From Emticicia sp. CRIBPO (GTDB taxonomy: Bacteria; Bacteroidota; Bacteroidia; Cytophagales; Spirosomataceae), in assembly GCF_009905725.1 (NCBI RefSeq), contig NZ_JAAAKV010000003.1, positions 400,808 through 464,807 of the forward strand: a stretch of DNA of 64,000 nt. The letters run 5' to 3'. The stretch's first letter is position 1. Every line of letters begins with the position of its first letter. Position numbers and translations under genes: made by a program. The notes below the pieces were generated by a model, which was given only the letters and a program-made list of their open reading frames with translations, did no database searches and was not told the origin of the DNA. Of this stretch, positions 1,436 through 50,285 are shown piece by piece.

Positions 1436-1541
1436 TGTCCGAAGCTGAACTCGGAGTGTTCGTTTTCGGACAGTTTCGAAAACAGGTATTATTTTAATGT
1501 ATTAATAATCAATATGTTGTGATTTTGGCATACCGTTTGAA
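1436..1541 (+). promoter_or_regulatory. Sigma-54 promoter with tandem activator sites, number 1
   Basis: The -24/-12 element at 1525-1541 reads TTGGCATACCGTTTGAA: GG at 1527-1528, ten bases, then GA. Upstream lie two 6-4-6 inverted repeats: a good one at 1457-1472 (TGTTCG-TTTT-CGGACA) and a degenerate one at 1436-1451 (TGTCCG-AAGC-TGAACT), centres 21 bp apart. The inner dyad centre is 63 bp from the -24 GG. The predicted transcript starts near 1551 and reads into 1634 and the permeases after it. This element occupies the otherwise gene-free stretch 1202-1633. The rest of that stretch is AT-rich upstream sequence for the kinase. Confidence 0.75.
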
Positions 1542-1582
1542 TAAAAAGAAATACAAATGAATGAAAAGCTATAATACTTATA

Positions 1583-1612
1583 AAGTGCAGGGAGTTTAAA
1601 ACCCCTGCACTT
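1583..1612 (+). other. Leader hairpin of the first sigma-54 transcript
   Basis: A ten-base perfect stem (AAGTGCAGGG pairing with CCCTGCACTT) around a ten-base loop lies between the predicted start site (about 1551) and the ATG at 1634. No T-run follows directly, so it is more likely an mRNA leader or stability structure than a terminator. Confidence 0.45.
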
Positions 1613-1633
1613 ATTTAAAAGACGACACGAATT

Positions 1634-2239
1634 ATGAAAAAGCTATTTATAAATAATTTAACATCAATGAAGACCGGACTTTTAATTATCACTTCCCTGA
1701 TCAGTTTTGCCGGCATGGCTCAAAGGAATGTTTCACTGAGCAAGTCTGTCAACGACAACGGCAAATCGCTTCATATACAGATAGACGGTACTGTAAACGG
1801 CAAGCCTGTCAATTACAATAAATCTTTTAATGTAGAGGGCTTAAGCAAAGCAGAAAAGGAAGAATTACAAGGTAAAGTCCTCAATGAATTAGGTATTTCA
1901 GGTGTTTCTGCACCTGAGCCTCCCGTAGCCCCGGAGGCTCCCAGGCATGCGGCCGCGTCGAAGCCACCTGTGGTGAAATCTTCTGTAAACAACGATTTTG
2001 ACCAGTCATTTGAGAGAACCAATGCCTCCGGAAATAGCAGGAATCAGGCTAAAATCAAGGGTTTCTCAAAAGAAGTGAGTTTTGACCCTAAGAGCGGTGT
2101 TTTATATATGAAATACAGTTTTTCTAAAGAAGGCGTCGAATATATTTCCGAAAAAACAGTAGATTCAGGAGCCGAAACCCCGCAAAAGAGGGCCAGGATA
2201 GTAGAAGAGTTTGAAAAAGAAATAGGATTGCCGCGTTAA
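1634..2239 (+). CDS. Small secreted protein of unknown function, first gene of a sigma-54 operon
   Basis: A 201-residue protein that I do not recognise. The N-terminus holds a signal peptide ending near FAGMAQ (about residue 30). Met12 (ATG at 1667) is an equally good start and gives a tidier signal peptide. The mature part has an N-terminal basic/polar segment, a Pro/Ala-rich linker (about 95-112) and a C-terminal stretch with alternating beta-type residues that ends in a charged helix. It lies 43 bp before the first permease and behind the sigma-54 promoter at 1525. It may be a periplasmic partner or a signal protein of the export system; that is inference from position only. Confidence 0.75.
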   Translation: MKKLFINNLTSMKTGLLIITSLISFAGMAQRNVSLSKSVNDNGKSLHIQIDGTVNGKPVNYNKSFNVEGLSKAEKEELQGKVLNELGISGVSAPEPPVAPEAPRHAAASKPPVVKSSVNNDFDQSFERTNASGNSRNQAKIKGFSKEVSFDPKSGVLYMKYSFSKEGVEYISEKTVDSGAETPQKRARIVEEFEKEIGLPR

Positions 2240-2282
2240 TCCGTACCGGGTAAAGTTAACCTACTTTAAAACCAACAGTGTC

Positions 2283-4736
2283 ATGGCCAGAAATTACTTT
2301 AAGATCATCATCAGGAATTTTTGGAAAAACAGGACGTATTCATTCATCAATGTTTTCGGACTTGCCATGGGTATTGCCTCAGCCTTGGTAATTGTCATGT
2401 ATGTCCGTGATGAGCTGGTTTACGACCGTTCTTTCAGCAAATCAGACCGCATTTACCAGGTAACGCTCGACGCCAAAATGGGGGAGACCGAAAGCCTGAC
2501 TTCCAACACCCCGCCACCGGTCGGAAGCACCATGTTACAGGAGTTTCCTGAGATCGAAGCCTTCACCCGGGTTTTCAGACCTTACGAGGTAGTGGTCAAC
2601 AACCCTGCTAAAAATACCCAGTTTATCGAAAAGGAAGTGCTGGCGGTTGACTCCAATTTCCTGCAGATATTTGATTATAAAATGCTGGCCGGTAACCCCC
2701 GGACCTGCTTTTCAGATCCGGATGCAGCCGTAATCACGGAAGATATGGCCAGGAAATATTTCGCCTCAGAGCCGGCCATCGGTAAAATCCTGCTTTTCAA
2801 CGGAAATCCCGTCAAAATAACCGGGGTACTGGCAGAATTGCCTGCTCAGACTTCCATTCAGTTTAAGATCTTGAAGCCCATGAAATCCCTGCGGGTGACC
2901 GAAGCCTTTTCATGGAGCTGGGTTTGGCTGCAGATGGATACCTATGTTCTGCTTAAAAAGAACATTACTCCTGAGCAGGTAGCATCGCTCAACACCAGGT
3001 TCCCGGGCATGGTCAGCCGGTATGCAGTGGAGGCTTTTGAAAGAATCGGTCAGCCCTTTGAAGCTTTCCTTAAAAAAGGCGGCAGATGGAATTTTTCCAT
3101 CAGACCTATGAAGGATGTTCATCTGTATTCGAGAGGTTATGAATCACGCATTGACAACCTTGGGGATATTCAGCAAGTGAGGATTTTTATGGTCATCGCC
3201 GTTTTTGTGATCATACTGGCCTGTATTAACTTTATGAACCTGACCACCGCCCGTTCGGTGAAAAGGGCCAAAGAAGTGGGTATCCAGAAAGCCCTCGGAG
3301 CTAACCGCTCCAGGATCATACTGCAGTTTTTTACGGAATCTTACCTTTATACCCTGCTTGCTACATTGGTGGCCTTGCTCTTCATTTCCTTGTTTATCCC
3401 TTATTTCAACCAGATTTCAGGGAAGAGCCTCGTTTTTGAAAATGTGTTTGAGCTGAATAACCTTTTGCTTTTAGCGGGTATCATTGTGTTTGTGGGCTTA
3501 CTTTCTGGTAGTTACCCGGCATTTTACCTTACTTCTTTTAATCCGGTCAATACCCTGAAGGCCAATTATATCAAAACCTCGTTCAGCAGCAGGCTGGTGA
3601 GAAACGGACTGGTGGTTTTCCAGTTTACGGTTTCCATTGCCCTCATCATTTGCTCAACGGTGGTTTTCAATCAGCTGCAGTTTACCCGCAACAAAGACAT
3701 GGGTTTTGTCAACGAAAATGTGCTGATTTTACCCAATATATTCGATATGCCGGGTAAAGAGACTTTCAGACAGGAAATCAGCAAAGAACCGGAGGTGGTC
3801 AATGCTTCTATCAGCACGGACATCCCTGCTGGCAGTGCTTTCGGAGATTTTTATGTACCCGAACCTGAAAATGACACAAGACCGGTAGCTAAAGACCTGA
3901 CTCTGTATTCATATATGGTGGATGAACACTTTATTCCGACCACACAGGTCAGGATCAGGCTGGGGAGAAACTTTTCTGATACCGGCACCAATGATTCAGC
4001 GAGTGTGATCCTGAATGAAACGGCCGTCAAAGCTATAGGCTGGCAAAATCCGCTGGGACAGTATCTCAGGTATCCGGGCGGAGACAATACCAGGTTTAAA
4101 GTAATTGGAGTGGTCAAGGATTTTGATGCACAGTCTGTCCGTGAGGCCATTACGCCGTTTGCATTGTTTCATAAGAGTTCTAAAATGAACGAAACCCCGA
4201 AGAACTATCTGCTGGTTAAATCAACCGCCGGTGGTGAAGCGAAACTGCTGGCAAAAGCAGAAGCTAAATGGAAGAAATTTATGCCTGAAGTGCCTTTTTC
4301 GTATTCTTTCCTGGATAAAAACTTTGAAGCTTTATACCGTTCTGAAGAAAAAACAGCTAAAGTACTCGGCATTTTTACCTTCCTGTCGATTGCGGTGGCG
4401 TGTTTAGGTTTGTTCGGGCTGATCGCCTTTTCTGTCGAGCAGCGTACCAAAGAAATCGGTATCCGTAAAGTGCTCGGAGCTTCAGTTTTCGGCATCACTT
4501 CCCTGATTTCAAGGGACTTTGTGAAGCTTGTTTTCATCGCTTTGCTGACAGCCAGCCCGATAGCCTGGTATTTTATGAACGAATGGCTGAATAATTTTAA
4601 ATATAAAATCACGATAGAATGGTGGATTTTTGTGATGGCAGGTACAGGAGCCATTGTCATTGCCCTGGTTACGATAGGCTACCAGGCCGTCAAAGCCGCC
4701 ATGATGAACCCGGTGGACTCGTTTAAGAGTGAGTGA
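2283..4736 (+). CDS. ABC transporter permease, MacB/FtsX family, two-module form
   Basis: An integral inner-membrane permease of 817 residues made of two MacB_PCD plus FtsX units. The first helix is at about 20-42, followed by a periplasmic domain and FtsX helices around 300-460 (motif EVGIQKALGANR after helix two). A second periplasmic domain comes next, and three C-terminal helices lie around 694-805 with KEIGIRKVLGAS between them. It ends in the family tail MNPVDSFKSE. Such permeases couple a cytoplasmic ATPase to periplasmic movement of lipids, peptides or lipoproteins. No ATPase gene is adjacent; the nearest are at 31734 and 53087. It is 43 bp after the small secreted gene and probably shares its sigma-54 promoter. 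Confidence 0.93.
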   Translation: MARNYFKIIIRNFWKNRTYSFINVFGLAMGIASALVIVMYVRDELVYDRSFSKSDRIYQVTLDAKMGETESLTSNTPPPVGSTMLQEFPEIEAFTRVFRPYEVVVNNPAKNTQFIEKEVLAVDSNFLQIFDYKMLAGNPRTCFSDPDAAVITEDMARKYFASEPAIGKILLFNGNPVKITGVLAELPAQTSIQFKILKPMKSLRVTEAFSWSWVWLQMDTYVLLKKNITPEQVASLNTRFPGMVSRYAVEAFERIGQPFEAFLKKGGRWNFSIRPMKDVHLYSRGYESRIDNLGDIQQVRIFMVIAVFVIILACINFMNLTTARSVKRAKEVGIQKALGANRSRIILQFFTESYLYTLLATLVALLFISLFIPYFNQISGKSLVFENVFELNNLLLLAGIIVFVGLLSGSYPAFYLTSFNPVNTLKANYIKTSFSSRLVRNGLVVFQFTVSIALIICSTVVFNQLQFTRNKDMGFVNENVLILPNIFDMPGKETFRQEISKEPEVVNASISTDIPAGSAFGDFYVPEPENDTRPVAKDLTLYSYMVDEHFIPTTQVRIRLGRNFSDTGTNDSASVILNETAVKAIGWQNPLGQYLRYPGGDNTRFKVIGVVKDFDAQSVREAITPFALFHKSSKMNETPKNYLLVKSTAGGEAKLLAKAEAKWKKFMPEVPFSYSFLDKNFEALYRSEEKTAKVLGIFTFLSIAVACLGLFGLIAFSVEQRTKEIGIRKVLGASVFGITSLISRDFVKLVFIALLTASPIAWYFMNEWLNNFKYKITIEWWIFVMAGTGAIVIALVTIGYQAVKAAMMNPVDSFKSE

Positions 4737-4939: not shown

Positions 4940-7348
4940 ATGATTCTAAACTATCTTAAAATCGCCTGGCGTAACCTGACCAAACGCAAATTTTACTCAG
5001 CGGTAACCATTCTCGGTTTATCGGTGGGAATGGCTTTTACCTTGCTGGTTACCCAGTATATCTGGTCAGAAGTCAGGGTCAATACGGCTCTGAAGCACCA
5101 GGATCACCAATACATGGTCCGCTCAGAATGGAAGAAAAAGGAAATGGGCCTTGAACAGACCTCCATTGCTCCCCTGGGCGAAGCTCTCAAAACTTCTTAT
5201 CCTGAACTGGTCAGCAATTATTACCGATTTGACGCGGTTACGACCGTGGTTTCAAAAGGCGATAACCACTTCAGGGAAGATATCCAGATCGGAGATTCCA
5301 CCATCCTGCGGATGTATGGATTTCCTTTGCTGCATGGTGATGCAAAAACAGCTTTTGATCAGCCCAATTCCGTCGTAATTTCCACAGAAACGGCCAATAA
5401 GTATTTCGGTAAAACCGATGTCGTGGGTCAGACCTTGTCCATAGATTCATTTTCCGGAGAGAAAAGGGATTTTATGATCACGGGTGTGCTGGATGAATTG
5501 CCCTTCAATTCGATTCTGAACATGTTTCATGAACATGATCCCATTCTGATGTCTGAATCGTCCATGGCGTTTTTTGACCGTGGTAATTTTGACGGCTGGG
5601 ACAATCTATATGTGGTTAATTACATCGAACTTAAGGAGGGAGTTAAGCCAGCCGATCTCGATCAGCCCATTAAACAACTGATGAATACCCATGCTTCAGA
5701 GCAGGTCCGTGATAACCTCAGCGTGAAACTGATGTCCCTTCAGGACCTTTACCTGGATGCAGACAACGGATTGATCAGAAAGACAGTGACCACACTCAGT
5801 ATTGTGGCCTTTTTCATCATGCTGATGGCCATCGTCAACTTTGTCAATATTTCAATCGGCAGTTCATCTTCGAGATTGAAAGAAATCGGTGTAAGAAAAG
5901 TTCTGGGGAGCTTAAAAGGCCAGGTCATCAGGCAATTTCTGACAGAATCTGTACTGATAGCCTTTTTTTCCTTACTGGTTTCCTTTGTGATTTATGAATC
6001 ATCCAGGAGCTTTTTCAGTGAAGTCCTGGGCAAGCCCATCGTCTCGCTGTTCACTGGTTCTCCTTATTTTATCGGGGTAGCGATGGTGCTGACCCTGATT
6101 ACCGGTGTGCTGGCGGGCATTTATCCTGCTTTTATATTATCTTCTTTACCTTCTATAGAATCCATGAAGGGAAAGTTCAGATCCGTCAAAGAAAACGTTT
6201 TGTTCAGAAGGATACTCGTGGTATCCCAGTTTACCATCGCTCTGTTTGTTTTCGGAAGTGCTGCTTTCATTTCGCGTCAGGTCAGTTTCTTCTTTAATAA
6301 AGACCTGGGCTATTCCAAAGAATCGGTTTTATCTGTGCCTGTGCCCCGCGACTGGACACCGGAAGGCACCCGTAAAATGGAGACCATCCGCCAGGAACTG
6401 GCTTCATTGCCTGAAGTGAGCGAGGCCAGTTTTTCATACGAAATCCCCAATGGCAGATCAGGCTTCAGTGCAGGGTTTTATCTGCCAGGCCAGGACTCGA
6501 CCCAGGCGGTTTTTGCCCCGGTTTTACAGACCGACGAGAAATTTGCCCCGACCTACCAGATAAAGACGGTAGCCGGAAAGTTCTTCGGCTATGCAAATGA
6601 TTCTCTAATCCGTGACAAAGTGGTGTTCAATGAAGCAGCCGTCAAAGCCCTTGGATTTAAAAATGCTGAAGCGGCCGTCGGCCAGACCATCAGGATGCAG
6701 ACTGCCGGCAGCCCGATGACGATTGATGGCGTGGTAAAAGATTTTCATTTCGAATCCATGCATCAGAACATCCGTCCTGTGGCGTTTCTTCATGTAATGG
6801 GTACCAACTATTACCGGTACATGTCGATCAGGCTGAGTTCAGGTGATCTGCCTGCGGCTTTGGCTTCTGTCGGTAAAAAATGGAATCAATTGATGCCCGG
6901 TGCACCGTTTGAATATAAATTTATAGATGACAGCCTTCAGCAGCTGTATGAGTCAGAACTCAGGCTTCGTAAGGCATCCCAGGTGGCTACCGTTCTTTCG
7001 ATAGTGATTGTTTTGCTGGGTGTTTTGGGAACCGTGTCGCTGAATATCGCAAGAAGGACCAAAGAACTCGGCATCAGGAAAGTGCTGGGGGCATCGGGGG
7101 GCAGTATCATCATGCTTTTCCTGAAAGAATTCATGATCGTACTGGGCATAGCCATAGTGGTTTCCTTTCCGATGGTTTATACTTTAATAGGGAAATGGCT
7201 TAAAAACTACGCTTACAGGGTAGACATCGACTGGGTTACCCTGTCGGTAGTGGGTGTGGCTTTCGGAGGGATAGTAGCCCTCCTGGTAGGGTTCCAGACC
7301 CTGAAAGCTGCCCTTGAAAACCCGGTGAAGTCTTTGAAGAGCGATTAG
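4940..7348 (+). CDS. ABC transporter permease, MacB/FtsX family, two-module form
   Basis: A paralogue of 802 residues with the same plan. The amphipathic N-terminus MILNYLKIAWRNL is followed by a first helix (about 20-42), a large periplasmic domain, FtsX helices from about 285 with LKEIGVRKVLGSLKG, a second periplasmic domain and three C-terminal helices with KELGIRKVLGAS. The C-terminal tail is LENPVKSLKSD. It diverges from its neighbours in the second periplasmic domain, which suggests a different cargo or partner. It lies 203 bp after the preceding permease, with a repeat element between them, so read-through could be partial. No ATPase is adjacent. Confidence 0.93.
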   Translation: MILNYLKIAWRNLTKRKFYSAVTILGLSVGMAFTLLVTQYIWSEVRVNTALKHQDHQYMVRSEWKKKEMGLEQTSIAPLGEALKTSYPELVSNYYRFDAVTTVVSKGDNHFREDIQIGDSTILRMYGFPLLHGDAKTAFDQPNSVVISTETANKYFGKTDVVGQTLSIDSFSGEKRDFMITGVLDELPFNSILNMFHEHDPILMSESSMAFFDRGNFDGWDNLYVVNYIELKEGVKPADLDQPIKQLMNTHASEQVRDNLSVKLMSLQDLYLDADNGLIRKTVTTLSIVAFFIMLMAIVNFVNISIGSSSSRLKEIGVRKVLGSLKGQVIRQFLTESVLIAFFSLLVSFVIYESSRSFFSEVLGKPIVSLFTGSPYFIGVAMVLTLITGVLAGIYPAFILSSLPSIESMKGKFRSVKENVLFRRILVVSQFTIALFVFGSAAFISRQVSFFFNKDLGYSKESVLSVPVPRDWTPEGTRKMETIRQELASLPEVSEASFSYEIPNGRSGFSAGFYLPGQDSTQAVFAPVLQTDEKFAPTYQIKTVAGKFFGYANDSLIRDKVVFNEAAVKALGFKNAEAAVGQTIRMQTAGSPMTIDGVVKDFHFESMHQNIRPVAFLHVMGTNYYRYMSIRLSSGDLPAALASVGKKWNQLMPGAPFEYKFIDDSLQQLYESELRLRKASQVATVLSIVIVLLGVLGTVSLNIARRTKELGIRKVLGASGGSIIMLFLKEFMIVLGIAIVVSFPMVYTLIGKWLKNYAYRVDIDWVTLSVVGVAFGGIVALLVGFQTLKAALENPVKSLKSD

Positions 7349-7589
7349 GAGCTGGAGACAAGGAGGACGGAGAAAGGAGAACGGTCTTACTGTTTTACGT
7401 CTGATTTTAATGCAACCATGGTGCACAGATTATTAAATTGATAAAAGAGGAGGTAATAGAAAAGGAATTGTTTTCCATTTCTCCGTTCTCCTTTTACCAA
7501 GGAGAGTAAATAAAGAATTTTAACATTAGGAAGAGTTTTTGAAAATGACATTTTCCGTTTTCCATTCCTCCTTTTTCCAAATAATAGAA

Positions 7590-10013
7590 ATGATTAAAAA
7601 CTATCTCAAAATCGCCTTCCGGAACCTGTGGAAAAACAGGTCCTATGCTTTTATTAATATTTTCGGGCTTTCTATTGCCTTCGGGTGTGCCATCCTGTTG
7701 TTTCTCACGGCACATTTTGAGTTTACCTTTGATGATTTCCAGGCCGGTAAGGACCGTATTTTTAAGGTTTATTTCAAGATCAATCACCCTGAAAAAGTCG
7801 AATACAGAGCCAACCTGCATACGCCCCTGACGCCTGCTTTAAAATCAGAATATGATGCTGAAATCAGGTACGCCACCCGTTTAATGGGAGGTGGAACACA
7901 GGTCGTGAAAGGCGAAAAGATCATCAACCAGGACCTGGAATATGTAGATAAGGATTATCTTAAAATGTTTTCTTTCAAAATGATAGAAGGCGATGCTGAC
8001 AAAGCACTGGACGGCGTGAATAATGTGGTGCTGAACCAGGAAACGGCCGAAAAAATCTTTGGAGAAGCCGAGGCTATGGGACAGACCATCAGCCTTAATT
8101 TTGGCGGTAAAATTGAGAATTATGTGGTGACGGGTATCATGGAAAAAGCCCCGCTAAACTCTACGATTGATAACAATATGCTGTTGAGATTTGAGAAAAA
8201 TCCGGAGTATCAGAATACCAAAGATCAGTGGGACTCAGACTACCATGATATTTATGTTCAGCTGGCAGACCATGTGAAACAGGATGTTTTTGAGAAAAGA
8301 CTGAGGACTTTCACCGCGAAATATTATAAAGAATCGATTCAGCAGCTTAAAAAAGACGGGGCACAGCCTGACGAAGCAGGGGAGGTAAAAAGCCTTAGAT
8401 TCCTGCCTTTGCCTGAGGTGCATTTCAATAAAAACGTAGGGGGCGGTGGAGCCATTGACGCGGCCTATCCTTACATTCTGCTGATCATCAGCGGTCTGGT
8501 TATTCTTATTGCCTGTATTAATTTCATCAATCTGTCGATAGCCCGTTCGTTGTCAAGAGCCAGGGAAGTAGGGATGAGAAAAGCCCTGGGGGCATTGAAA
8601 TCCCAGATCCTGGGTCAGTTCTGGGGCGAGGCGTTTATCATCTGCCTGATGGCTTTTGCTCTCGGAACCCTCATTGCTACCAGCCTGATGCCTGCCTACA
8701 ACGGCTTGTTCAAAAGCCATCTGAGTTTCGGAAGCCTGCTGGACCCTGTCGTCATAGGTCTGCTGGTGCTTGGGTTTCTGCTGATCACCTTTATTGCGGG
8801 TGGTTATCCGGCCATGTCGGTGACGAAGTTTAACACCGTGGAGGTGCTGAAAGGAAAAGTGAAAATCAGTGCACGTTCCGGAGGGATCAGAAGTTCACTG
8901 ATCATAGCCCAGTTCAGTATTGCCATATTGCTGATGACCTGTACGATGATCATCTGGAAACAAATCAATTATCTGCAGAATATGCCCCTGGGCTTTGACA
9001 AGGAGCATGTGGTGAGTATTCCCGTGGGCGTGGGCGTTCCCGGCGAAAAAATACTGGATTTTATGCGGAATGAGCTGGCAAATGATTCAAGAATCCTGGA
9101 TATCTCGGGAGCTGACATCAACATAGGCAGGGGCAAGGACGGCTCAGGCTACAAATCGGTTTTCGGGTTTGAAATGGGTGGAAAGAGCTATAAAACCAAC
9201 GGATTGAATATTGACTACGACTATACCAAAACCCTCGGCCTGAAGATTATCGCTGGCCGGGATTTTTCAAGGCAGTTTGCTGGAGATAAAGACAGGTCAA
9301 TTGTCATCAACGAAACCATGGCGAAGCAACTGGGTTTTAAAGACCCGATCGGACGAAACATTCCGCTGGGTGACAGCCTCGGTAAAAACATCGTGGGTGT
9401 GGTGAAAGATTATCATTTCGAATCACTTAAAGCGAAGATTGAGCCTATGACTTATTTCCTTCAGAGTGATTTCGGGATAGCCTATATATTTGTGAAAGTG
9501 GCACCGGAAAGCCCTGCTGAAACGATGAAAGTGCTTGAAAGGGCGTTTAAGCAGATAGCCCCGAAAGCTGAATTTATGCCTTCTTTCCTGGATGAAAACA
9601 CGAATAACCAGTATAAAAAAGAAGAAAGGATGTCCCAGATCGTCATGAGTGCTGCCATTCTGACTATTTTGTTATCCTGTCTTGGATTGTTTGCCATCAC
9701 GATCATGATCATCTCCCAGAGAACCAAGGAAATCGGGATCAGGAAAGTGCTGGGAGCCAGCATTCCGAACCTCGTCGGACTCCTGTCAAAAGACTTCCTT
9801 TCGATGGTGTTGATTGCCATAGTCATCGCTTCGCCGGTGGCCTGGTACCTGATGAACAAGTGGTTGCAGGATTATGAGTACAAAACGCAGTTGTCGTGGT
9901 GGGTTTTTGCCGTCATAGGAGTGGTGACCCTGATCATTGCTTTCTGTACCGTGAGCTTCCAGTCGGTCAAAGCCGCCCTGATGAACCCGGTGAAGTCGTT
10001 GAAGAGCGAATGA
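7590..10013 (+). CDS. ABC transporter permease, MacB/FtsX family, two-module form
   Basis: A permease of 807 residues from the ATG at 7590. An in-frame ATG at 7539 would add 17 residues, but 7590 restores the family start MIKNYLKIAFRNLW, so I prefer it. It has a first helix at about 20-42, FtsX helices from about 300 with REVGMRKALGALKS, C-terminal helices with KEIGIRKVLGAS, and the tail MNPVKSLKSE. The 241-bp gap before it holds AT-rich sequence and imperfect GGAGAAAGGAGAACGG-type stretches but no clear promoter. Its role is membrane export or lipoprotein handling with an unlinked ATPase. Confidence 0.92.
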   Translation: MIKNYLKIAFRNLWKNRSYAFINIFGLSIAFGCAILLFLTAHFEFTFDDFQAGKDRIFKVYFKINHPEKVEYRANLHTPLTPALKSEYDAEIRYATRLMGGGTQVVKGEKIINQDLEYVDKDYLKMFSFKMIEGDADKALDGVNNVVLNQETAEKIFGEAEAMGQTISLNFGGKIENYVVTGIMEKAPLNSTIDNNMLLRFEKNPEYQNTKDQWDSDYHDIYVQLADHVKQDVFEKRLRTFTAKYYKESIQQLKKDGAQPDEAGEVKSLRFLPLPEVHFNKNVGGGGAIDAAYPYILLIISGLVILIACINFINLSIARSLSRAREVGMRKALGALKSQILGQFWGEAFIICLMAFALGTLIATSLMPAYNGLFKSHLSFGSLLDPVVIGLLVLGFLLITFIAGGYPAMSVTKFNTVEVLKGKVKISARSGGIRSSLIIAQFSIAILLMTCTMIIWKQINYLQNMPLGFDKEHVVSIPVGVGVPGEKILDFMRNELANDSRILDISGADINIGRGKDGSGYKSVFGFEMGGKSYKTNGLNIDYDYTKTLGLKIIAGRDFSRQFAGDKDRSIVINETMAKQLGFKDPIGRNIPLGDSLGKNIVGVVKDYHFESLKAKIEPMTYFLQSDFGIAYIFVKVAPESPAETMKVLERAFKQIAPKAEFMPSFLDENTNNQYKKEERMSQIVMSAAILTILLSCLGLFAITIMIISQRTKEIGIRKVLGASIPNLVGLLSKDFLSMVLIAIVIASPVAWYLMNKWLQDYEYKTQLSWWVFAVIGVVTLIIAFCTVSFQSVKAALMNPVKSLKSE

Positions 10014-10273: not shown

Positions 10274-12646
10274 ATGATTAAAAATTATATCAAAATCGCC
10301 TTCAGAAGCCTGTTCAAGAACAAGGTTTACAGCTTTATCAATATTTTTGGTCTGGCTCTCGGTATGACCGTCTCGATGCTGATCCTCATGTTTGTGGTGC
10401 ACGAGTTCAGTTTTGATAAGTTTCATCAGAACCATAAGCAGATTTACCGCATAATGGCCCAGCTGGATATGGATGGCCGGAAAATGCAGTTCAACTCATT
10501 TACGCCCAGGCTCGGTCCGGCTATCAAGTCGTCGTCACCCGGCGTGAAAGATTTTGTCAGGATAAAAAATGCCTACAAAAAAGTGGTGATCAAGAATCCC
10601 GCTGCCGGTGCCGAATTGTTCTATGAACCTAATTTTATGTTCACCGACCCTTCATTTTTTAAGGTTTTCAGCTTTAAACTGAAGGAAGGTAATGTCAATG
10701 AAATACTGACCAGGCCTTTTACGATGGTCATTTCGGAAAGGATGGCCGAGAAATATTTCGGGGATAAAGACCCGATCGGCAAAGCCCTGCTTTACGAAGG
10801 CAAACACCTGATGGAGATTACCGGGGTGGCAGAAAACCCTCCTTCAAACTCGACCTTTAATTTCGATTTTTTGGCTTCCTCCATCACCATTCCCCAATTG
10901 AGCGAAAGTGATAAAATGTCGTGGGAAAAGGCCGGGATCTTCAATACTTATTTATTGCTCGATGATGAGAAGTCCGTTCCCAAAGTCACGAAAAATATCC
11001 TGGCTGCCGGAAAACAAACCGGGGCTTTTGATGAATCCGCCAATTACATACTGGAGCAGTTTGCGACCATTCACCTGGGCAATAACTTTTCAGACTCAGG
11101 CAATACGAGACTGATCTATATCTTTGCCGGTATCGCCGTCATGATCCTTTTCCTGGCTTTGTTTAATTACATGAGCTTAACAACAGCCAGGTCAACCCTC
11201 AGAGCCAAGGAAGTTGGAGTGAGAAAGGTTTCCGGAGCGGGCAGGGGAGGCCTGATCAGGCAGTTTTACGTAGAATCGGTACTGGTTTGCCTGATTGCCT
11301 TCGCTTTGAGTTTCCTGATGACCAAGTCTTTCCAGCGGCCGTTTTATGAATTACTCAACCTTAACATAGATACTTCATTCCTGATATCACCCCTTTTTAT
11401 CAGCATTATTTTCGGCCTGCTTTTGCTGAGTGCTTTTTTTGCGGGTTCTTACCCGGCACTGATTCTCTCCGGTTTTTCACCGATGGAAGTGCTGAAAGGC
11501 AGACTGTCGAGCCAGCAGAAAGGATCGGGTATCAGGAAAGGTTTTACGGTGTTTCAGTTTACCGTTTCGATAGCCCTGATCATTTCGACTTTTATTGTGA
11601 AAGATCAGCTGAATTTTATGCAGCAGACCAAACTGGGTTTTAACAAAGACCAGGTCATCAGCATCCCGCTGAGCGAAACAGCCGGGAAGAATTTTTTCGC
11701 TTTACGCAATGAGATCGCCAAAGAATCCGGGGTGGAAGATGTAACCGTAGCCAGCACTGAGATTTTCAAAGGCTATAACATGTATTTCACCAAGAATTTT
11801 ACGAATAACAAGGATGTAGGTCTCATGTCGATGAGTGTTGACCAGAATTTTGTCAAGACATTTCAACTGGAATGGAAAACCAAACCCCAGACGGACTCCT
11901 GGAAAAACGGGGGGGTGGTGCTGCTGAATGAGAAGGCCGTTCTTGACCTGGGTTTTAAAGGGAATCCTGTTGGACAGCAACTTTTAGGAGAGTCTGTCAG
12001 CGGAATCATTAAAGACGCTCACTTCAATTCACTTCAGTCGAAAATTGAACCCCTGGCGTTTTTTGTGGTCGGCGATACCACCAACTTGCTGGCCAGGGAA
12101 GGTTCTGCAGGGATACTTTATGCCAAAGTCGACCCTAAAGCAGACCTGAAAGCCAAAGTGGAAAAGATAGAGGCCATTTATAAAAAATATGAGGTGGAGA
12201 AACCTTTTGAGTACTATTTCCTTGATGATGCGTTTAACGAGACATTTAAAACGGAAATCAGGATGTCGAAAATGTTTACGGTGTTTACGGCTTTTGCCAT
12301 TTTTATTGCCTGCATGGGCTTGTTCGGACTTGTCACTTTCACGGCTGAGATCAAAACCAAGGAAATCGGCATCAGGAAGGTGCTGGGTGCCAGTGTGAGT
12401 AACCTGGTGGTATTGCTTTCCAAAGATTTCATCAAACTCGTGCTGATTGCCAACGGACTGGCCTTCCCGCTGGCCTGGTACATGATGGACAAATGGCTGC
12501 AGGATTTTACGTATAAAACGGATATTTCGTGGACCACTTTTACTGTTTCCGGGACACTGGCCATTGTGATTGCTTTGGTTACTGTAAGTTTCCAGGCCAT
12601 CAAAGCCGCCCTGATGGATCCGGTGGAATCGTTGAAAAGCGAATAG
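10274..12646 (+). CDS. ABC transporter permease, MacB/FtsX family, two-module form
   Basis: A permease of 790 residues starting MIKNYIKIAFRSLFKN, with a first helix at about 20-42. FtsX helices begin near residue 275, with KEVGVRKVSGAGRG between helices two and three. The C-terminal three-helix unit has KEIGIRKVLGAS and the tail MDPVESLKSE. It is the last of the first four permeases. A set of hairpins (12719-12799) follows it and may end or process the transcript. There is no adjacent ATPase or adaptor. Confidence 0.93.
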   Translation: MIKNYIKIAFRSLFKNKVYSFINIFGLALGMTVSMLILMFVVHEFSFDKFHQNHKQIYRIMAQLDMDGRKMQFNSFTPRLGPAIKSSSPGVKDFVRIKNAYKKVVIKNPAAGAELFYEPNFMFTDPSFFKVFSFKLKEGNVNEILTRPFTMVISERMAEKYFGDKDPIGKALLYEGKHLMEITGVAENPPSNSTFNFDFLASSITIPQLSESDKMSWEKAGIFNTYLLLDDEKSVPKVTKNILAAGKQTGAFDESANYILEQFATIHLGNNFSDSGNTRLIYIFAGIAVMILFLALFNYMSLTTARSTLRAKEVGVRKVSGAGRGGLIRQFYVESVLVCLIAFALSFLMTKSFQRPFYELLNLNIDTSFLISPLFISIIFGLLLLSAFFAGSYPALILSGFSPMEVLKGRLSSQQKGSGIRKGFTVFQFTVSIALIISTFIVKDQLNFMQQTKLGFNKDQVISIPLSETAGKNFFALRNEIAKESGVEDVTVASTEIFKGYNMYFTKNFTNNKDVGLMSMSVDQNFVKTFQLEWKTKPQTDSWKNGGVVLLNEKAVLDLGFKGNPVGQQLLGESVSGIIKDAHFNSLQSKIEPLAFFVVGDTTNLLAREGSAGILYAKVDPKADLKAKVEKIEAIYKKYEVEKPFEYYFLDDAFNETFKTEIRMSKMFTVFTAFAIFIACMGLFGLVTFTAEIKTKEIGIRKVLGASVSNLVVLLSKDFIKLVLIANGLAFPLAWYMMDKWLQDFTYKTDISWTTFTVSGTLAIVIALVTVSFQAIKAALMDPVESLKSE

Positions 12647-15635: not shown

Positions 15636-15742
15636 TGTCCGCTTTTGTACAGGCCCGTGTCCGATTTCGGACATTTAATAACTTTTGCTATTTTTAAAAT
15701 GCTTGTAAACAGCTGTTTATGAATTCAGGCATGTGGTTTGTT
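15636..15742 (+). promoter_or_regulatory. Sigma-54 promoter with tandem activator sites, number 2
   Basis: The -24/-12 element at 15726-15742 reads CAGGCATGTGGTTTGTT: GG at 15728-15729, ten bases, then GT. The inner dyad at 15658-15673 is perfect (TGTCCG-ATTT-CGGACA). The outer one at 15636-15651 is degenerate (TGTCCG-CTTT-TGTACA). Their centres are 22 bp apart, and the inner centre is 63 bp from the GG, exactly as at promoter 1. The predicted start is near 15752, 38 bp before the permease ATG. Confidence 0.78.
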
Positions 15743-15789: not shown

Positions 15790-18219
15790 ATGATCAGCAA
15801 TTACCTGAAAGTCGCCTGGAGAAATCTCCTGAAAAACAAGACCTTTTCCTTCATTAACATCGCCGGTCTGGCTATCGGCCTGAGCTGTTTTATGCTGATA
15901 GGGCTGTATGTGATTGACGAACTCAGCTTTGACCGCTATAACGAAAAAGCCTCGAGGATTTACAGGATACATTCCGACATCAAGTTCGGCGGAACCGAAC
16001 TCAAACTGGCAGTATCTTCAGATCCGATGGGGGCAACGCTGAAGAAGGATTACCCGCAGGTAGAACAATACGCCAGGATTTATGCTTCTGACGGTTCAAA
16101 ATTCATCAAAAAAGGCAGTGAATACATCAATGAACCTAAGGTCGCTTATGTGGACTCGACCTTTTTTGAGGTATTTACTTTCCCCTCCATTGCAGGAGAC
16201 ACTAAAACGGCCCTTGATAAACCTAATTCGGTTATTTTATCTGAGACAGCCGCCAAAAAGTATTTCGGAACGACAGACGCTATCGGTAAAAGCATAGAAG
16301 AAGGCATCGGTAAAAAAACCGTATACAACGTGATGGCCGTGATCAAAGACATGCCGGTCAACTCCCACTTTAATTTTGACTTCCTGTTTTCGATGGATAA
16401 TGTGAATTATACGATGGGTAATTTCCTGAGTCATAATTTCCATACTTATCTGCTACTGAAAGATCATGTTGACTATAAGGCATTTGAAAAGAATTTTGAG
16501 CCGTTTACGGAGAAGTACATTCTACCGCAAGCCAAACAGTTCATGCAGATCAACACCATGAAGGACTTTGAAAAAACCGGTAATAAGCTGTCATACAGCC
16601 TGATACCTTTGACGGATATTCACCTGAAGTCTGATAAATTTGCTGAACTTTCTCCAAATGGAAGCATGCAGTATGTCTACATCTTCTCTGCCGTGGCTAT
16701 TTTCATTCTTTTGATTGCCTGTATCAATTTCATGAACCTTTCGACCGCAAGGTCGGCGAACAGGTCAAAAGAAGTGGGTATCCGTAAAGTACTGGGCACC
16801 GAAAGAGGCACGCTGATCAGGCAGTTTATTGCAGAATCAAGCCTGATGAGTTACATCAGCTTTGCATTTGCCTTACTGATCACCGTTCTGGCTATTCCGT
16901 ATTTCAATGATATTTCCGCCAAGCAGTTTTCGATCACGAGCCTGCTTGATCCTAAGATTTTACCTGTTTTGTTGCTTTTGCCTTTGGTGGTTGGTTTTAT
17001 GGCGGGTTATTACCCTGCGTTTTTCCTTTCTTCTTTCAGGCCGATCGAAGTGCTGAAAAGCAAGATCACGACGGGCTTCAAAAAAAGTAACCTGAGGAAC
17101 CTGCTCGTCACTTTCCAGTTTGTGACTTCCATCATTCTTGTGATCGGCACGATCGTGATCTATCAGCAGCTCAGCTATATCCAGAACTCAAAAATAGGGT
17201 ATGAAAAAGACCAGATGCTGCTGGTCAGGGGTACTGATGCCCTTCAGGCCAATGACGAGGTCTTTAAAGAGGAAGTCAAGAAAATGGCCGGCGTAAAGAG
17301 CGGTTCTTTTGCAGGATATCTTCCGGTCAGCAATTCTTCAAGAAGCGACAACACCTTTTCGACTACCCCGGTGATGGACATGAAGAACGGGTTTAACATG
17401 CAGACCTGGAGAATTGATTACGACTACATTCCGAACCTGGGTATGGAAGTGATCAAAGGCAGGAACTTTTCGAAAGAATTCGGAGCCGATTCCAGCAAGA
17501 TGATCATCAATGAGTCGACTGCTAAAATCATGGGCCACAAAGACCCCATCGGGAAATTCATTTATACGATGGACGATAACAACCAGAGTGTGGCTTATGA
17601 GGTGATCGGGGTGGTTAAAAACTTCAATTACGAATCCCTGAAGAAAAACGTCGGGCCTTTGTGTTTCAGACTGGGGAATAACAACTGGGAAACTGCCTTC
17701 AGAGTGAGCACGGCTGATGTGCCGGGGCTGATTCAGAAAATAGAAGCGAAATGGAATACCCTGGCCCCGGAAATGCCTTTCAGTTACAGGTTCCTGGACG
17801 ATGCCTTTGACGAAATGTACAGGGCTGAGCAAAGGGTTGGTAAAGTAGCTCTGACATTTGCCTTTTTAACGATATTCATCGCCTGTCTCGGCTTATTCGG
17901 TTTGGTGACCTACATCGCAGAGCAACGAACCAAAGAAATAGGTATCCGGAAAGTATTGGGAGCCAGTATTTTCAGCATTACGGCTCTGTTGTCGAAAGAC
18001 TTCCTGAAACTGGTGCTGATTGCCATTTTCATCGCTTCGCCGATTGCTTATTTTGTGATGAATTACTGGCTGCAGGATTTTGCCTACAAAATCAGCATTT
18101 CGTTCTGGATGCTGATTGGGGTAGGAGTGTTTTCGATATTAATCGCCTTTTTAACGATAAGTTTTCAAAGCATTAAAGCGGCTTTAATGAATCCGGTCAA
18201 ATCCCTGAAGAGCGAGTAA
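15790..18219 (+). CDS. ABC transporter permease, MacB/FtsX family, two-module form
   Basis: A permease of 809 residues, first gene behind the second sigma-54 promoter. It begins MISNYLKVAWRNLLKN, with a first helix at about 20-42. FtsX helices start near 295, with KEVGIRKVLGTERG. The second periplasmic domain spans about 460-680. The C-terminal three-helix module carries KEIGIRKVLGAS and the tail MNPVKSLKSE. A perfect palindrome begins at the base after its stop codon, and the next permease follows 112 bp later, so the two are likely co-transcribed. No ATPase gene is linked. Confidence 0.93.
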   Translation: MISNYLKVAWRNLLKNKTFSFINIAGLAIGLSCFMLIGLYVIDELSFDRYNEKASRIYRIHSDIKFGGTELKLAVSSDPMGATLKKDYPQVEQYARIYASDGSKFIKKGSEYINEPKVAYVDSTFFEVFTFPSIAGDTKTALDKPNSVILSETAAKKYFGTTDAIGKSIEEGIGKKTVYNVMAVIKDMPVNSHFNFDFLFSMDNVNYTMGNFLSHNFHTYLLLKDHVDYKAFEKNFEPFTEKYILPQAKQFMQINTMKDFEKTGNKLSYSLIPLTDIHLKSDKFAELSPNGSMQYVYIFSAVAIFILLIACINFMNLSTARSANRSKEVGIRKVLGTERGTLIRQFIAESSLMSYISFAFALLITVLAIPYFNDISAKQFSITSLLDPKILPVLLLLPLVVGFMAGYYPAFFLSSFRPIEVLKSKITTGFKKSNLRNLLVTFQFVTSIILVIGTIVIYQQLSYIQNSKIGYEKDQMLLVRGTDALQANDEVFKEEVKKMAGVKSGSFAGYLPVSNSSRSDNTFSTTPVMDMKNGFNMQTWRIDYDYIPNLGMEVIKGRNFSKEFGADSSKMIINESTAKIMGHKDPIGKFIYTMDDNNQSVAYEVIGVVKNFNYESLKKNVGPLCFRLGNNNWETAFRVSTADVPGLIQKIEAKWNTLAPEMPFSYRFLDDAFDEMYRAEQRVGKVALTFAFLTIFIACLGLFGLVTYIAEQRTKEIGIRKVLGASIFSITALLSKDFLKLVLIAIFIASPIAYFVMNYWLQDFAYKISISFWMLIGVGVFSILIAFLTISFQSIKAALMNPVKSLKSE

Positions 18220-31453: not shown

Positions 31454-31560
31454 TGTCCGCCGATGAACAAACCCTGTCCGATTTCGGACATAAAATATTT
31501 CATTTAAACAGGTAATGTGTTGATAGTAAATAAATTATGATTATTGGCATAGGGTTTGAT
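31454..31560 (+). promoter_or_regulatory. Sigma-54 promoter with tandem activator sites, number 4
   Basis: The -24/-12 element at 31544-31560 reads TTGGCATAGGGTTTGAT: GG at 31546-31547, ten bases, then GA. The inner dyad at 31475-31490 is TGTCCG-ATTT-CGGACA. The outer at 31454-31469 is TGTCCG-CCGA-TGAACA. Centres are 21 bp apart, and the inner centre is 64 bp from the GG. The predicted start is near 31570, leaving a 164-base leader before the ABC ATPase. The 21-bp array ends about 165 bp upstream of the outer dyad. Confidence 0.78.
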
Positions 31561-31733: not shown

Positions 31734-32396
31734 ATGATTCAGTTAAATTCAGTATCAAAACATTATCCTGCGGGATTCGGCAAAACATACGTACTCAGAA
31801 ACATCAACCTGGATATCAACGAAGGCGAGTTTGTTTCTATCATGGGGCCTTCAGGCTCGGGTAAATCAACTTTACTGCACATCCTTGGCTTGCTGGAAGA
31901 GCCTTCTGAAGGCGAATACCTGTTTCTTGACCATCCGGTGCAGAAGCTCTCTGAAAAAAGACGTACTGAGCTGCACAGGACCCAGATCGGTTTTGTGTTC
32001 CAGGCCTATCACCTCATCGACGAACTGACCGTTTATGAAAACATCGAAACACCTCTCTTGTATAAAGGCCTTTCTTCCTCAGAGAGAAAAAGTAAGGTGG
32101 CGGATATCCTTGACAGGTTCAATATTGTAGGTAAAAAAGACCTTTTTCCAAACCAGTTATCAGGAGGTCAGCAGCAACTCGTGGGTATTGCCCGTGCCAT
32201 CATCACAGAACCAAGGGTGATTTTTGCCGATGAGCCTACCGGAAACCTGCATTCAGAACATGCCAAAAAAATCATGGAGGTGTTTAAGGAACTGAACGAG
32301 AATGACAACGTCACGATCGTGCAGGTAACCCACTCCGAAGTAAACGCCGAATACGGCAACAGGGTCATCAATCTGAAGGACGGCTGGATTGATTAA
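31734..32396 (+). CDS. ABC transporter ATP-binding protein (MacB/LolD type)
   Basis: A free-standing ATPase of 220 residues for a MacB/LolD-type exporter. Walker A GPSGSGKST is at 38-46, the Q-loop follows (VFQAYHL), the signature is LSGGQQQLVGIARA and the Walker B VIFADEPTGN, with the H-loop THSE. The signature has Leu where most members have Arg (GGQQQR). It is 28 bp before a TolC gene, but no permease or adaptor is in this operon. Together with the eight ATPase-less permeases in the window, this suggests a shared motor. It is transcribed from a sigma-54 promoter like three of the permease units. Confidence 0.93.
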   Translation: MIQLNSVSKHYPAGFGKTYVLRNINLDINEGEFVSIMGPSGSGKSTLLHILGLLEEPSEGEYLFLDHPVQKLSEKRRTELHRTQIGFVFQAYHLIDELTVYENIETPLLYKGLSSSERKSKVADILDRFNIVGKKDLFPNQLSGGQQQLVGIARAIITEPRVIFADEPTGNLHSEHAKKIMEVFKELNENDNVTIVQVTHSEVNAEYGNRVINLKDGWID

Positions 32397-48216: not shown

Positions 48217-48253
48217 ATTTTTCATTAAAAACCTAAACTATAATTAGTTGTCT

Positions 48254-50098
48254 TTATTGATTCAGCCAGGCTTTTCTCAGGTTGACCTGAGCTTCTGTAG
48301 CCTCTGGATCTTCTGCAATGACGTTTGTTCTCATGGCTTTGAATGACTGCACTTTCGCTTTAAGCAGTACGGTTTCTTCGTTGCCGTTCTCATTTTTTCT
48401 CAGCACACCGACAGTCAGATCATCCCCGTCTTTGACGGTTTCGAGCCATTTGGTTCTGAATTCGGCATAGCTTTGAATCGTTATTTCTTCTCCGTTGACG
48501 CTCTGAAGGATGTCGCCTACCTGGTATCCCAGTTCTTTTCCTTCCGCATTCATCTGGTCTGTATTGATGACTTTGAACTTCCCGTTGGCAGGAGCCATGC
48601 TCATGTTGCCGAGGTTGTAAGTCGTAATGATTTTTTCTTCTTCGTATTCCAGCCCCACTTTTTTTAATATCTCTTTCAAAGGCAGCTTTTCGCTACCCTC
48701 CACGTATTTCACCAGGAAGTTCTTAATGGCCGGTGAGCTCAGTGCCTGGATCTCATCAAACAACTGATCATCCTGGAAATGCTGGTCTTTGCCGAATTTC
48801 TTCGAAAGGTCAAGTACCAGGTCGATGATACCTTTTTTGCCACCTGATTCTTCTCTGAGCAGGATATCGAGGCATAAAGAGATCAAGGCTCCTTTCTGGT
48901 ATACATTACCAAACTGACTCTGGTGTTTTTTCAGGACCCCTTTACTCATTTCAGTAAAAGAAAGCCTGTCATCAAACTGCTTCTGAGAGCTGTTGATCTT
49001 TTCAGTCAGCACTTTATAAAGCTCTTCCGGTGATTTCAGTCCGTACCTGGTCTGGGCAATATGAGCATGGTATTCCGTGGAGCCTTCATATAGCCAAAGG
49101 TGCTTCGACATCTCCGGGTAATTGAAATTGAAGTCATGAATCTGCTCCGAATGAATGTTCAGAGGTGTCAGGATATGAAAAAACTCGTGAGCGGCAATAT
49201 CGGTAAAATACGGTCCGAAAACTTCCTGCGGGTATTCCTGGAAATAATAAACGGATGAATATGAATGTTCCAGGGCCCCTTCAGAACCTGACAAACCCGG
49301 CTTGTTGTCAAAATAAACCAGGAAAGCGTATTTATCAACCGGCAGAGTGCCTCCAAGGTATTTCCCCTGGGCCTGAAGTAAAGGATCGACCTGCTCGGCC
49401 AGGAATTTGGAAGTAACCTTGCCGGAAGGTGAATAAACAGAAATCAGGACATCGGTATTGCCTACTTTGACCGTCGTGGTGTCCGGTTTACAATACAATA
49501 TAGGACTGTCTACCAGTAAATTATAGGAATCTGTCAGGAAAACATCCTGCGTGTTCGAATGGTCGCTGTCTGTGAGTGCAGTGCTTCCGTAAAAATCAGG
49601 AGTGTGTTTGATCGTCACTTCGTACGCCGATTTTTCGTACCCCGAAAAATATCCGAACAATCCGTGGTTATTGATCAGGTAAACTGTGTCTTTCTCAATG
49701 GAAGTGCCGGAGGGCTCAAAAATGGTATTGTCGGCTTTATCATAAGCATCAAAAGTATCATTGACCCTGTAAGTGATTTTGACAAGTTTGTCCGAACGTT
49801 CGATCAGCCAGCCGTTTTTATCCAGTTTTTTGGTTTTGAGAATGTTGCCTTTTTTGTCCAGTGCCTTGAAATCTTCAATAAAACGACCATAATCGTCTTC
49901 TGAATAAGTACCCGGAACAGTTTTGGGAATAAAGAACTTCAGGTCCTTTTTTTTGAAAGAGGGACAAGTCAGTTCAACACTCAACTGATCATTGGAAGAT
50001 TGTGTCAAATCAACCGAGTACCGGAGTACCGGTTGATTTTCCTGTGCACCGGCTGAAAACAGCGTGCCCGCAAAAATTATAAGTAATAGCTTTTTCAT
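48254..50098 (-). CDS. M61-family metallopeptidase with PDZ domain
   Basis: 614 residues. The signal peptide ends at FSAGAQ (residue 19). The zinc-binding HEFFH is at 304-308 within AAHEFFHILTPLNI, and the third ligand Glu is in the downstream YEGSTEYHAHI segment. A C-terminal PDZ domain (about 490-580) has the GYQVGDILQSVNGEE groove. M61 enzymes are periplasmic aminopeptidases with a preference for glycine or acidic N-termini. Its own promoter has the dyad operator (50115-50161), so the NarL-type regulator at 39701 may control it. The terminator beyond its stop carries the same dyad. Confidence 0.9.
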   Translation of the reverse strand: MKKLLLIIFAGTLFSAGAQENQPVLRYSVDLTQSSNDQLSVELTCPSFKKKDLKFFIPKTVPGTYSEDDYGRFIEDFKALDKKGNILKTKKLDKNGWLIERSDKLVKITYRVNDTFDAYDKADNTIFEPSGTSIEKDTVYLINNHGLFGYFSGYEKSAYEVTIKHTPDFYGSTALTDSDHSNTQDVFLTDSYNLLVDSPILYCKPDTTTVKVGNTDVLISVYSPSGKVTSKFLAEQVDPLLQAQGKYLGGTLPVDKYAFLVYFDNKPGLSGSEGALEHSYSSVYYFQEYPQEVFGPYFTDIAAHEFFHILTPLNIHSEQIHDFNFNYPEMSKHLWLYEGSTEYHAHIAQTRYGLKSPEELYKVLTEKINSSQKQFDDRLSFTEMSKGVLKKHQSQFGNVYQKGALISLCLDILLREESGGKKGIIDLVLDLSKKFGKDQHFQDDQLFDEIQALSSPAIKNFLVKYVEGSEKLPLKEILKKVGLEYEEEKIITTYNLGNMSMAPANGKFKVINTDQMNAEGKELGYQVGDILQSVNGEEITIQSYAEFRTKWLETVKDGDDLTVGVLRKNENGNEETVLLKAKVQSFKAMRTNVIAEDPEATEAQVNLRKAWLNQ

Positions 50099-50114
50099 AA
50101 AAACATTGATGCTA

Positions 50115-50161
50115 CAAAATTAAATGATGAATATAAATTTTAACTCACCCATTTTGGGGTA
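50115..50161 (-). promoter_or_regulatory. Dyad operator plus -7 box of the M61 peptidase gene
   Basis: On the minus strand the dyad TACCCCA-AAA-TGGGTGA (50161-50145), centre 50153, is followed 31 bp later by the -7 box TAATTTTG (50122-50115). The transcript would start near 50108 and leave a ten-base leader before the ATG at 50098. Confidence 0.65.
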
Positions 50162-50181
50162 ATTATCAGATTTTTTTAAAC

Positions 50182-50285
50182 TGTTCTATATCAAACAAGG
50201 CGTGCGAAACCGCACGTTTTTGGTGTTAAGTAGTTTATGTATCTTGTTGATTTTGAGTAGATTGTGTGTTGGCACGACCTTTGGA
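50182..50285 (+). promoter_or_regulatory. Sigma-54 promoter with tandem activator sites, number 5
   Basis: The -24/-12 element at 50269-50285 (TTGGCACGACCTTTGGA) is the closest of the five to the textbook sigma-54 consensus: GG at 50271-50272, ten bases, then GG. The dyads are at 50201-50216 (CGTGCG-AAAC-CGCACG) and 50182-50197 (TGTTCT-ATAT-CAAACA), centres 19 bp apart. The inner centre is 63 bp from the GG. The inner dyad keeps the 6-4-6 frame but has CGTGCG arms in place of TGTCCG. The predicted start is near 50295, 67 bp before the ATG. Confidence 0.75.

Follow-up and report, generated by a model that had tools for sequence, protein, structure and literature searches.

Two related dyad codes at predicted sigma-54 promoters of MacB/FtsX exporter genes in Emticicia sp. 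CRIBPO

Introduction

NtrC- and ZraR-type activators classically work from paired upstream sites together with integration host factor (IHF). Here we describe a related arrangement in a 64,000-nucleotide stretch of the Emticicia sp. CRIBPO genome (the window: positions 400808-464807 of contig C23, in a 6.06 Mb genome of 39 contigs), where five predicted sigma-54 promoters precede genes of MacB/FtsX-type ATP-binding cassette (ABC) exporters. The favoured reading, to which we assign a probability of about 0.8, is that two paralogous NtrC-type two-component systems drive the sigma-54 promoters of these exporters through two dyad codes, A and B. The receiver-AAA+-Fis-type helix-turn-helix regulators, the tandem dyads, the -24/-12 elements and the IHF-like site between them resemble NtrC/ZraR systems, whereas the MacB/FtsX exporter targets, the short fixed dyad distance and the two paralogous codes one base pair apart do not.

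The link between sigma-54 and such permeases is already in print: predicted sigma-54 promoters are reported to be enriched before COG0577 ABC antimicrobial-peptide permeases in Bacteroidia, in what was called first evidence (PMC12316311, PLoS One 2025). The main text of that paper does not contain the terms UAS, upstream activat-, inverted repeat or palindrom-, and no activator, dyad code or paralogue split was found there. In the open-licence literature nothing was found either on the activator and its dyads, on the split between paralogues or on the helix-base link described below.

The exporter genes recall several described families at a distance. As in the darobactin exporter DarBCD, a permease, the C23:358 kb adaptor and an ATPase match DarB, DarC and DarD at 128.8, 196.4 and 244.6 bits, scores that lie under the NCBIfam equivalog cut-offs of 700, 450 and 375 and come from exporter models alone. 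The duplicated permease layout gives full-length matches to ADOP (TIGR03434) of 323.3 and 273.2 bits, which fall under the cut-off of 622.3 and place these proteins outside that family as defined; permease prefix domain 2 was detected on a C39 permease at 97.2 bits (cut-off 35). A DUF4097 protein combined with FtsX-type transport and a two-component system is also described for the Lia/PSP envelope-stress systems (PMC11237479); in contrast to those, the regulator here is of NtrC type, and the LiaG match reaches 57 bits against a cut-off of 285.

Five predicted sigma-54 promoters in the window

Direct reading at 1525, 15726, 25188, 31544 and 50269 (sites 1 to 5) gave a GG-N10-G -24/-12 element at each position, of TGGCA type at four sites and AGGCA at 15726, all in agreement with GG-N10-G(C/A). 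The centre of the proximal 6-4-6 dyad lies 62.5, 62.5, 64.5, 63.5 and ~62 bp from the GG in site order, with a weaker dyad 21, 22, 21, 21 and 19 bp above it, much as an earlier reading of this DNA (the original prediction) had described. That prediction had also assigned TGTYCG-N4-CGGACA to all five sites. The motif holds for the first four (code A) and fails at 50269, where the dyad is CGTGCG-AAAC-CGCACG (code B). Export genes follow all five, with a small secreted-type protein ahead of the permeases at 1525. The predicted view of a Bacteroidota host using sigma-54 promoters with an NtrC-type paired-dyad layout before MacB/FtsX exporters is borne out by the same layout elsewhere in the genome and in relatives. 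Sites 1-5 are predicted sigma-54-dependent promoters, for which RpoN dependence and a start ~12 bases past the -12 element would be expected. Sigma-70-like sites in window positions 1-16000 are at chance level (26 versus 25.1).

The regular geometry had been called hard to obtain by chance. A strict, motif-free count agrees: the window holds three GGCA-N8-G elements that have a perfect 6-4-6 inverted repeat of any sequence 60-66 bp upstream, where 40 dinucleotide shuffles average 0.25 and never exceed 2. The looser, motif-free GG-N10-G count, however, is unremarkable (6 versus a shuffle mean of 3.8, maximum 8), and the motif-based count of 4 against 0.025 comes from a partly circular test. The window-only shuffle test is modest, and the weight of the non-chance case rests on genome-level counts.

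Code A across the genome and its candidate activator

A profile, R1, was built from sites 1-4 and two sites found by pattern (C23:358 kb and C39:176 kb). In the genome it matched all its training sites (six, E <= 2.3e-16) and, at 3.0e-8 and 6.5e-6, two new ones; site 5 scored 0.0086 and the next independent match ~0.1. With a ninth site found by inspection ahead of a C12 permease, the genome holds nine code A promoters. TGTCCG-N4-CGGACA occurs 3 times in 6.06 Mb, always at code A promoters (control 0), and CGGACA-N48-60-GGCA has 12 matches against 4 in the control, six of them code sites. Dyads scattered at random over the genome had been named as an outcome that would speak against a real code; the distribution favours one. 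The proposed single regulon of five sites does not survive, as the site 5 dyad differs and sites 1-4 match promoters elsewhere in the genome.

Counting frames of about 790-910 aa as duplicated permeases gives 32 in the genome. Of these, 29 belong to same-strand runs headed by A sites: ten at C23:358 kb, eight in the window, seven on C39, two on C36 and one each on C1 and C12. ORF 13025-15517, at the end of the site 1 permease run, was considered as a permease and rejected as a DUF5916 protein (655 bits), which leaves eight duplicated permeases in the window. The parts that define MacB/FtsX (type VII) exporters were all found, namely MacB_PCD and FtsX domains, a separate ATPase, an adaptor and TolC; the predicted pump parts fit one exporter kind, with their assembly into one pump putative.

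Genome-wide, six regulators carry a strong sigma-54 activator domain (PF00158), and four weaker matches stay below 35 bits. Two rpoN genes are present (C6:93164-93643 and C37:217700-218176); the C37 copy adjoins another sigma-54 response regulator. One of the NtrC-type proteins, regulator A, lies at C23:356.4-357.8 kb, 43 kb before the window, with a histidine kinase next to it; its class assignment is based on PF00158, alignment and NtrC-type NCBIfam models. The C23:358 kb A site lies between the adaptor gene and the divergently oriented regulator A, which is the likely activator of the code A promoters.

Orthologues of regulator A were sought in 58 relatives, with limits of 400 bits and R1 E <= 1e-4 that were set after the lists were seen. 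Regulator and sites are both present in 33 relatives and both absent from 17, with the regulator only in 5 and sites only in 3 (Fisher p 1e-7). In 13 of the relatives' 30 regulator loci with both elements clear, and in 10/52 loci of named genomes, regulator A again has a divergent A site; the named genomes include Emticicia, Larkinella, Rhabdobacter, Persicitalea, Arundinibacter and one metagenome-assembled genome labelled Zixiibacteriota.

Code B and the operon of regulator 56528

GTGCG-N4-CGCAC has a single match in the 6.06 Mb genome, namely site 5 (control 0). Site 5 heads a row in the order HlyD-TolC-ABC-permease-permease-regulator-kinase, and the order from HlyD to the regulator (ORF 56528, regulator B) recurs in 13/14 loci of its orthologues; the fourteenth stretch holds the regulator alone. 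Regulator 56528 appears to fit code B, at its own operon.

The original prediction had proposed one regulon and a test of this regulator, placed at 56543, for binding to the dyads. Its control of all five promoters single-handedly would accord with its being the sole sigma-54 activator in the window, with the TGTnCG arms common to both codes and with the weak match of site 5 to the A profile. Its own dyad type, however, is found once in the genome, at its operon, while regulator A stands beside an A site, and in relatives the type of dyad varies with the linked regulator's helix residue. This makes sole control by 56528 very improbable. As activator of sites 1-4 it was rejected on dyad uniqueness and on the position of regulator A, and assignment of the two codes to two separate systems is preferred.

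Gene content and spacing in relatives

R1 detects the layout in 44/58 relatives at E <= 0.05. Gene content was counted at 75 sites in relatives with R1 scores of ~28 bits or more, by the first gene within 450 bp. The first gene is a permease at 44, HlyD at 10, ABC at 8, DUF4097 at 4, PadR at 2, a relative of the window's 201 aa protein (small201) at 2 and another gene at 5, one of which falls at a contig end. The first gene is thus an exporter gene, DUF4097, PadR or small201 relative at 70/75 sites. A permease profile without the DUF5916 protein counts a permease at 49/83 A sites. In relatives, the first gene behind three A sites (L136, L125, L073) encodes a small secreted-type protein (92-127 aa); the three share a stretch similar to FDASAYVT/FEASAFMT and are possible cargo or helpers.

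This breadth of gene content bears on whether the promoters are gene-duplication remnants with no joint control today. The permeases do form a paralogous family in tandem runs; yet in the six-site alignment conservation is confined to the dyad, the -24/-12 element and a few spacer positions, the spacers themselves differ, and genes of no such kinship (adaptor, ATPase, PadR, DUF4097) have this layout in front of them too. Duplication alone is extremely unlikely to account for the sites, and joint control is preferred.

The spacing is equally regular. The proximal dyad lies 61-64 bp from the GG in 71/83 A sites and 73-76 bp in 5, and the dyad-to-dyad distance is 20-23 bp in 80/83. With dyad position left free over 30-110 bp, 67/75 A sites fall at 61-64 bp and 5 at 73-76 bp. 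Perfect 6-4-6 repeats of the B set, taken without regard to motif, lie at 61-64 bp in 19 cases, at 74 bp in 8 and elsewhere in 3, and with the dyad then left free 39/44 fall at 61-64 or 73-74 bp. These checks carry some bias, since the sigma-54 element had been chosen jointly with a dyad 58-67 or 72-77 bp away. With the two main classes set off by one helical turn, the helix face would seem to matter.

Palindromes of this ordinary operator size could also belong to another factor, such as a repressor, and lie near sigma-54 promoters by coincidence; PadR genes behind some sites would suit that idea. The dyads, however, stand in phase at 61-64 or 73-76 bp above the -24/-12 element, far from the position of a simple repressor, and covary with NtrC-type regulators, which renders an unrelated operator very unlikely and favours activator sites.

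An IHF-like element between dyads and promoter

The IHF consensus is WATCAANNNNTTR, of which YAANNNNTTGATW is the complement. In A promoters conservation extends over columns -32 to -16 ahead of the GG, and -32 to -20 fit YAANNNNTTGATW; sites with a weak sigma-54 element were omitted from the column and IHF counts, 75/83 being kept for the columns. With at most one mismatch, the element occurs in 47/69 A promoters of relatives (7.4 in shuffles), in 23/43 B promoters (4.1) and in 4/6 training sites (0.9), nearly always at -31 to -33 in both A and B promoters. At two mismatches the six training sites are not above chance (5 versus 4.0). Four of the five window sites carry the element between dyads and promoter; site 2 has no good copy, its best at -33 to -31 showing 3 mismatches.

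Recognition helix and dyad base 4

Code A and code B dyads appear to be separated by one symmetrical base pair. In a first set of loci, the promoter dyad had G4 at 12/12 scorable loci whose regulator carries a recognition-helix Phe (TRFALYRR or SRFALYRR), and C4 at 3/3 whose regulator carries Ser or Gly. The Phe-G4 rule was recorded as a prediction before 40 further genomes were analysed, of which 30 were scorable and 10 not. In these, Phe occurred with G4 in 11/11 and non-Phe without G4 in 19/19, giving 23/23 and 22/22 overall. Phe at that position was found in none of 30 regulator A orthologues. Loci L172, L220 and L223 were dropped for lack of HlyD in the stretch, and L198, L227 and L218-L225 were left unscored for lack of a clear dyad. 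L187 and L200 were scored by the upper dyad, the lower one being poor; the left halves at L168 and L171 are poor (6/10 positions), and the promoters of L170 and L177, missed by simple scans, were seen at a lower sigma-54 threshold.

Within family f12 (B promoters L201-L217), Ala goes with T4 in 2/2 loci, and most of the 15 Gly loci have C4, one being mixed T/C. This may point to a finer correspondence between residue and base. In LuxO, as described in PMC11407668, an alanine change at S423 abolished activity; in an alignment made here by the shared Tyr-Arg, this serine falls on the putative code-deciding residue.

Proposed mechanism

The sites, their spacing, gene content, co-occurrence and covariation point to binding and activation by regulators A and B. 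System A (regulator A and its kinase) would bind tandem TGTYCG-N4-CGGACA dyads ~63 and ~84 bp above the GG and turn on sites 1-4 and five further promoters. Its targets would form a split export machine in which ~29 duplicated permeases and a toastrack protein go with one adaptor, two ATPases and one TolC, and we infer that code A installs alternative permeases on a common set of ATPase, adaptor and TolC. System B (56528/57924) would bind TGTGCG-N4-CGCACA-type dyads and control its own complete operon via site 5. The IHF-like element probably introduces a bend that brings the activator into contact with the sigma-54 polymerase, for which the helical phase would have to be constant. What separates the two systems is probably dyad base 4, read by the residue after a conserved Arg: Phe would read G4, and small or polar residues C, T or A.

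Both kinases have two N-terminal hydrophobic helices joined by a loop of few residues. Intramembrane-sensing kinases with such short loops answer cell-envelope antibiotics. Because of this likeness and the resemblances to exporter models, we infer that the signal is envelope damage or stress, or antimicrobial compounds. In the Bce-type pairs of Bacillota, permeases act with sensor kinases. A rather doubtful extension is that the activators are insulated by one helix residue and one base pair and that ATPase-less permeases serve partly as sensors for the short-looped kinases, so that a cell would tune a whole set of modular exporters built on common ATPase, adaptor and TolC parts.

Several observations weigh against control by two such systems. 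The permease runs in the window have gaps of 43-260 bp, which makes operon membership putative, and three duplicated permeases (two on C34, one at C1:209 kb) have no code site. The R1 training sites were spaced at 62-65 bp, so that spacing class is favoured. Perfect dyads are absent from 38/59 genomes, including nine of the same genus, and number 60 across all genomes against 22 for the reversed control. Eight of the 58 relatives are discordant for regulator A and sites; one genome (G023, 98% complete) has sites and no regulator match at E <= 1e-80, and many relatives, such as same-genus loci and Spirosoma, have no site beside regulator A. One PF00216 protein was found in the genome search, so an IHF pair is not evident. 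On the side of the helix link, no clear dyad was seen at 2/56 B loci, both with Ser, nor any dyad near the adaptor at eight Asn loci (family f18, L218-L225); the sequences are related, so the counts are not independent. When the helix is left out of tree building, Phe and G4 show two changes each, and these coincide.

With only two independent changes a sign test cannot reach significance, and the Phe-G4 link could be an inherited coincidence, with other residues deciding the code; further helix positions do vary (I/M/L before Ser/Thr-Arg). Against this, Phe is the helix residue common to both G4 groups (TRF and SRF), and Ile is present without G4 in regulator A relatives. Coincidence is unlikely on balance, though with an appreciable chance, and readout of base 4 by the Phe position is preferred.

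The proposal would offer a common switch, and a probable switch protein, for the many duplicated MacB/FtsX permeases, so far unexplained, that this family (Spirosomataceae) carries. It would also predict which genes work together as a split exporter, and would provide a natural system, spread across dozens of genomes, for the insulation of paralogous activators by one residue and one base pair.

Feature coordinates and other window elements

Table 1. Promoter elements and genes in the window (window positions), and code A sites elsewhere in the genome (contig positions).
Feature	Position	Strand	Sequence or remark
Site 1 distal dyad, code A	1436..1451	+	TGTCCG-AAGC-TGAACT
Site 1 proximal dyad, code A	1457..1472	+	TGTTCG-TTTT-CGGACA
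Site 1 IHF-like element	1495..1507	+	TAATGTATTAATA, 1 mismatch to YAANNNNTTGATW
Site 1 sigma-54 -24/-12 element	1526..1540	+	TGGCATACCGTTTGA
201 aa protein	1634..2239	+	N-terminal hydrophobic signal-peptide-like stretch; no Pfam/NCBIfam match
Duplicated MacB/FtsX permease	2283..4736	+	site 1 run
Duplicated MacB/FtsX permease	4940..7348	+	site 1 run
Duplicated MacB/FtsX permease	7539..10013	+	site 1 run
Duplicated MacB/FtsX permease	10274..12646	+	site 1 run
Site 2 distal dyad, code A	15636..15651	+	TGTCCG-CTTT-TGTACA
Site 2 proximal dyad, code A	15658..15673	+	TGTCCG-ATTT-CGGACA
Site 2 sigma-54 element	15727..15741	+	AGGCATGTGGTTTGT
Duplicated MacB/FtsX permease	15790..18219	+	after site 2
Duplicated MacB/FtsX permease	18332..20695	+	after site 2
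Duplicated MacB/FtsX permease	20931..23369	+	after site 2
Site 3 distal dyad, code A	25097..25112	+	TGTTCG-CTTC-TGTACG
Site 3 proximal dyad, code A	25118..25133	+	TGTTCG-AAAG-CGGACA
Site 3 IHF-like element	25157..25169	+	TAGTTGGTTGATT, 1 mismatch
Site 3 sigma-54 element	25189..25203	+	TGGCACAGAATTGGA
Duplicated MacB/FtsX permease	25342..27717	+	after site 3
DUF4097 (toastrack) protein	27881..28915	+	next after site 3 permease; LiaG-like below NCBIfam cut-off
Pentapeptide-repeat protein	28937..29710	+	
Site 4 distal dyad, code A	31454..31469	+	TGTCCG-CCGA-TGAACA
Site 4 proximal dyad, code A	31475..31490	+	TGTCCG-ATTT-CGGACA
Site 4 IHF-like element	31513..31525	+	TAATGTGTTGATA, 0 mismatches
Site 4 sigma-54 element	31545..31559	+	TGGCATAGGGTTTGA
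ABC ATPase	31734..32396	+	after site 4; nearest NCBIfam model DarD (under its cut-off)
TolC-type outer membrane efflux protein	32425..33723	+	after site 4
Site 5 distal weak dyad	50182..50197	+	TGTTCT-ATAT-CAAACA
Site 5 proximal dyad, code B	50201..50216	+	CGTGCG-AAAC-CGCACG
Site 5 IHF-like element	50240..50252	+	TATCTTGTTGATT, 1 mismatch
Site 5 sigma-54 element	50270..50284	+	TGGCACGACCTTTGG
HlyD-type adaptor	50362..51612	+	after site 5
TolC-type outer membrane efflux protein	51623..53071	+	site 5 row
ABC ATPase	53087..53749	+	site 5 row
Single MacB/FtsX permease	53840..55084	+	site 5 row
Single MacB/FtsX permease	55147..56313	+	site 5 row
NtrC-type response regulator B	56528..57919	+	receiver, sigma-54 AAA+, HTH_8 (Pfam); helix TRFALYRR
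Histidine kinase	57924..59198	+	two N-terminal hydrophobic helices, very short loop between
Code A site	C23:358 kb		HlyD adaptor, ABC ATPase and ten permeases behind
Code A site	C39:176 kb		PadR-like gene and seven permeases behind, one 410 aa gene among them
Code A site	C36		PadR and two permeases behind
Code A site	C1:828 kb		one permease behind

Two further repeats were observed in the window. A REP-like palindrome, CCTGGGCTTYGCCC..GGGCGGG, occurs at 4783, 10062, 20728 and 24018, with 3/4 copies between or ahead of permease genes. A second palindrome, TCACCCAYTTTGGGTKA-like, lies at 36515-36531, 40371-40387 and 50145-50161; with at most one mismatch these are the three copies in the whole genome, all inside the window. 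They precede a propeller histidine kinase (36560), a TonB-type outer membrane protein (40442) and an M61 peptidase (48254-50098, minus strand), and the palindrome is probably the site of the LuxR-type regulator at 39701-40348. A fourth, weaker copy with two mismatches lies at 48198-48214 (minus strand), just past the 3' end of the M61 peptidase gene.

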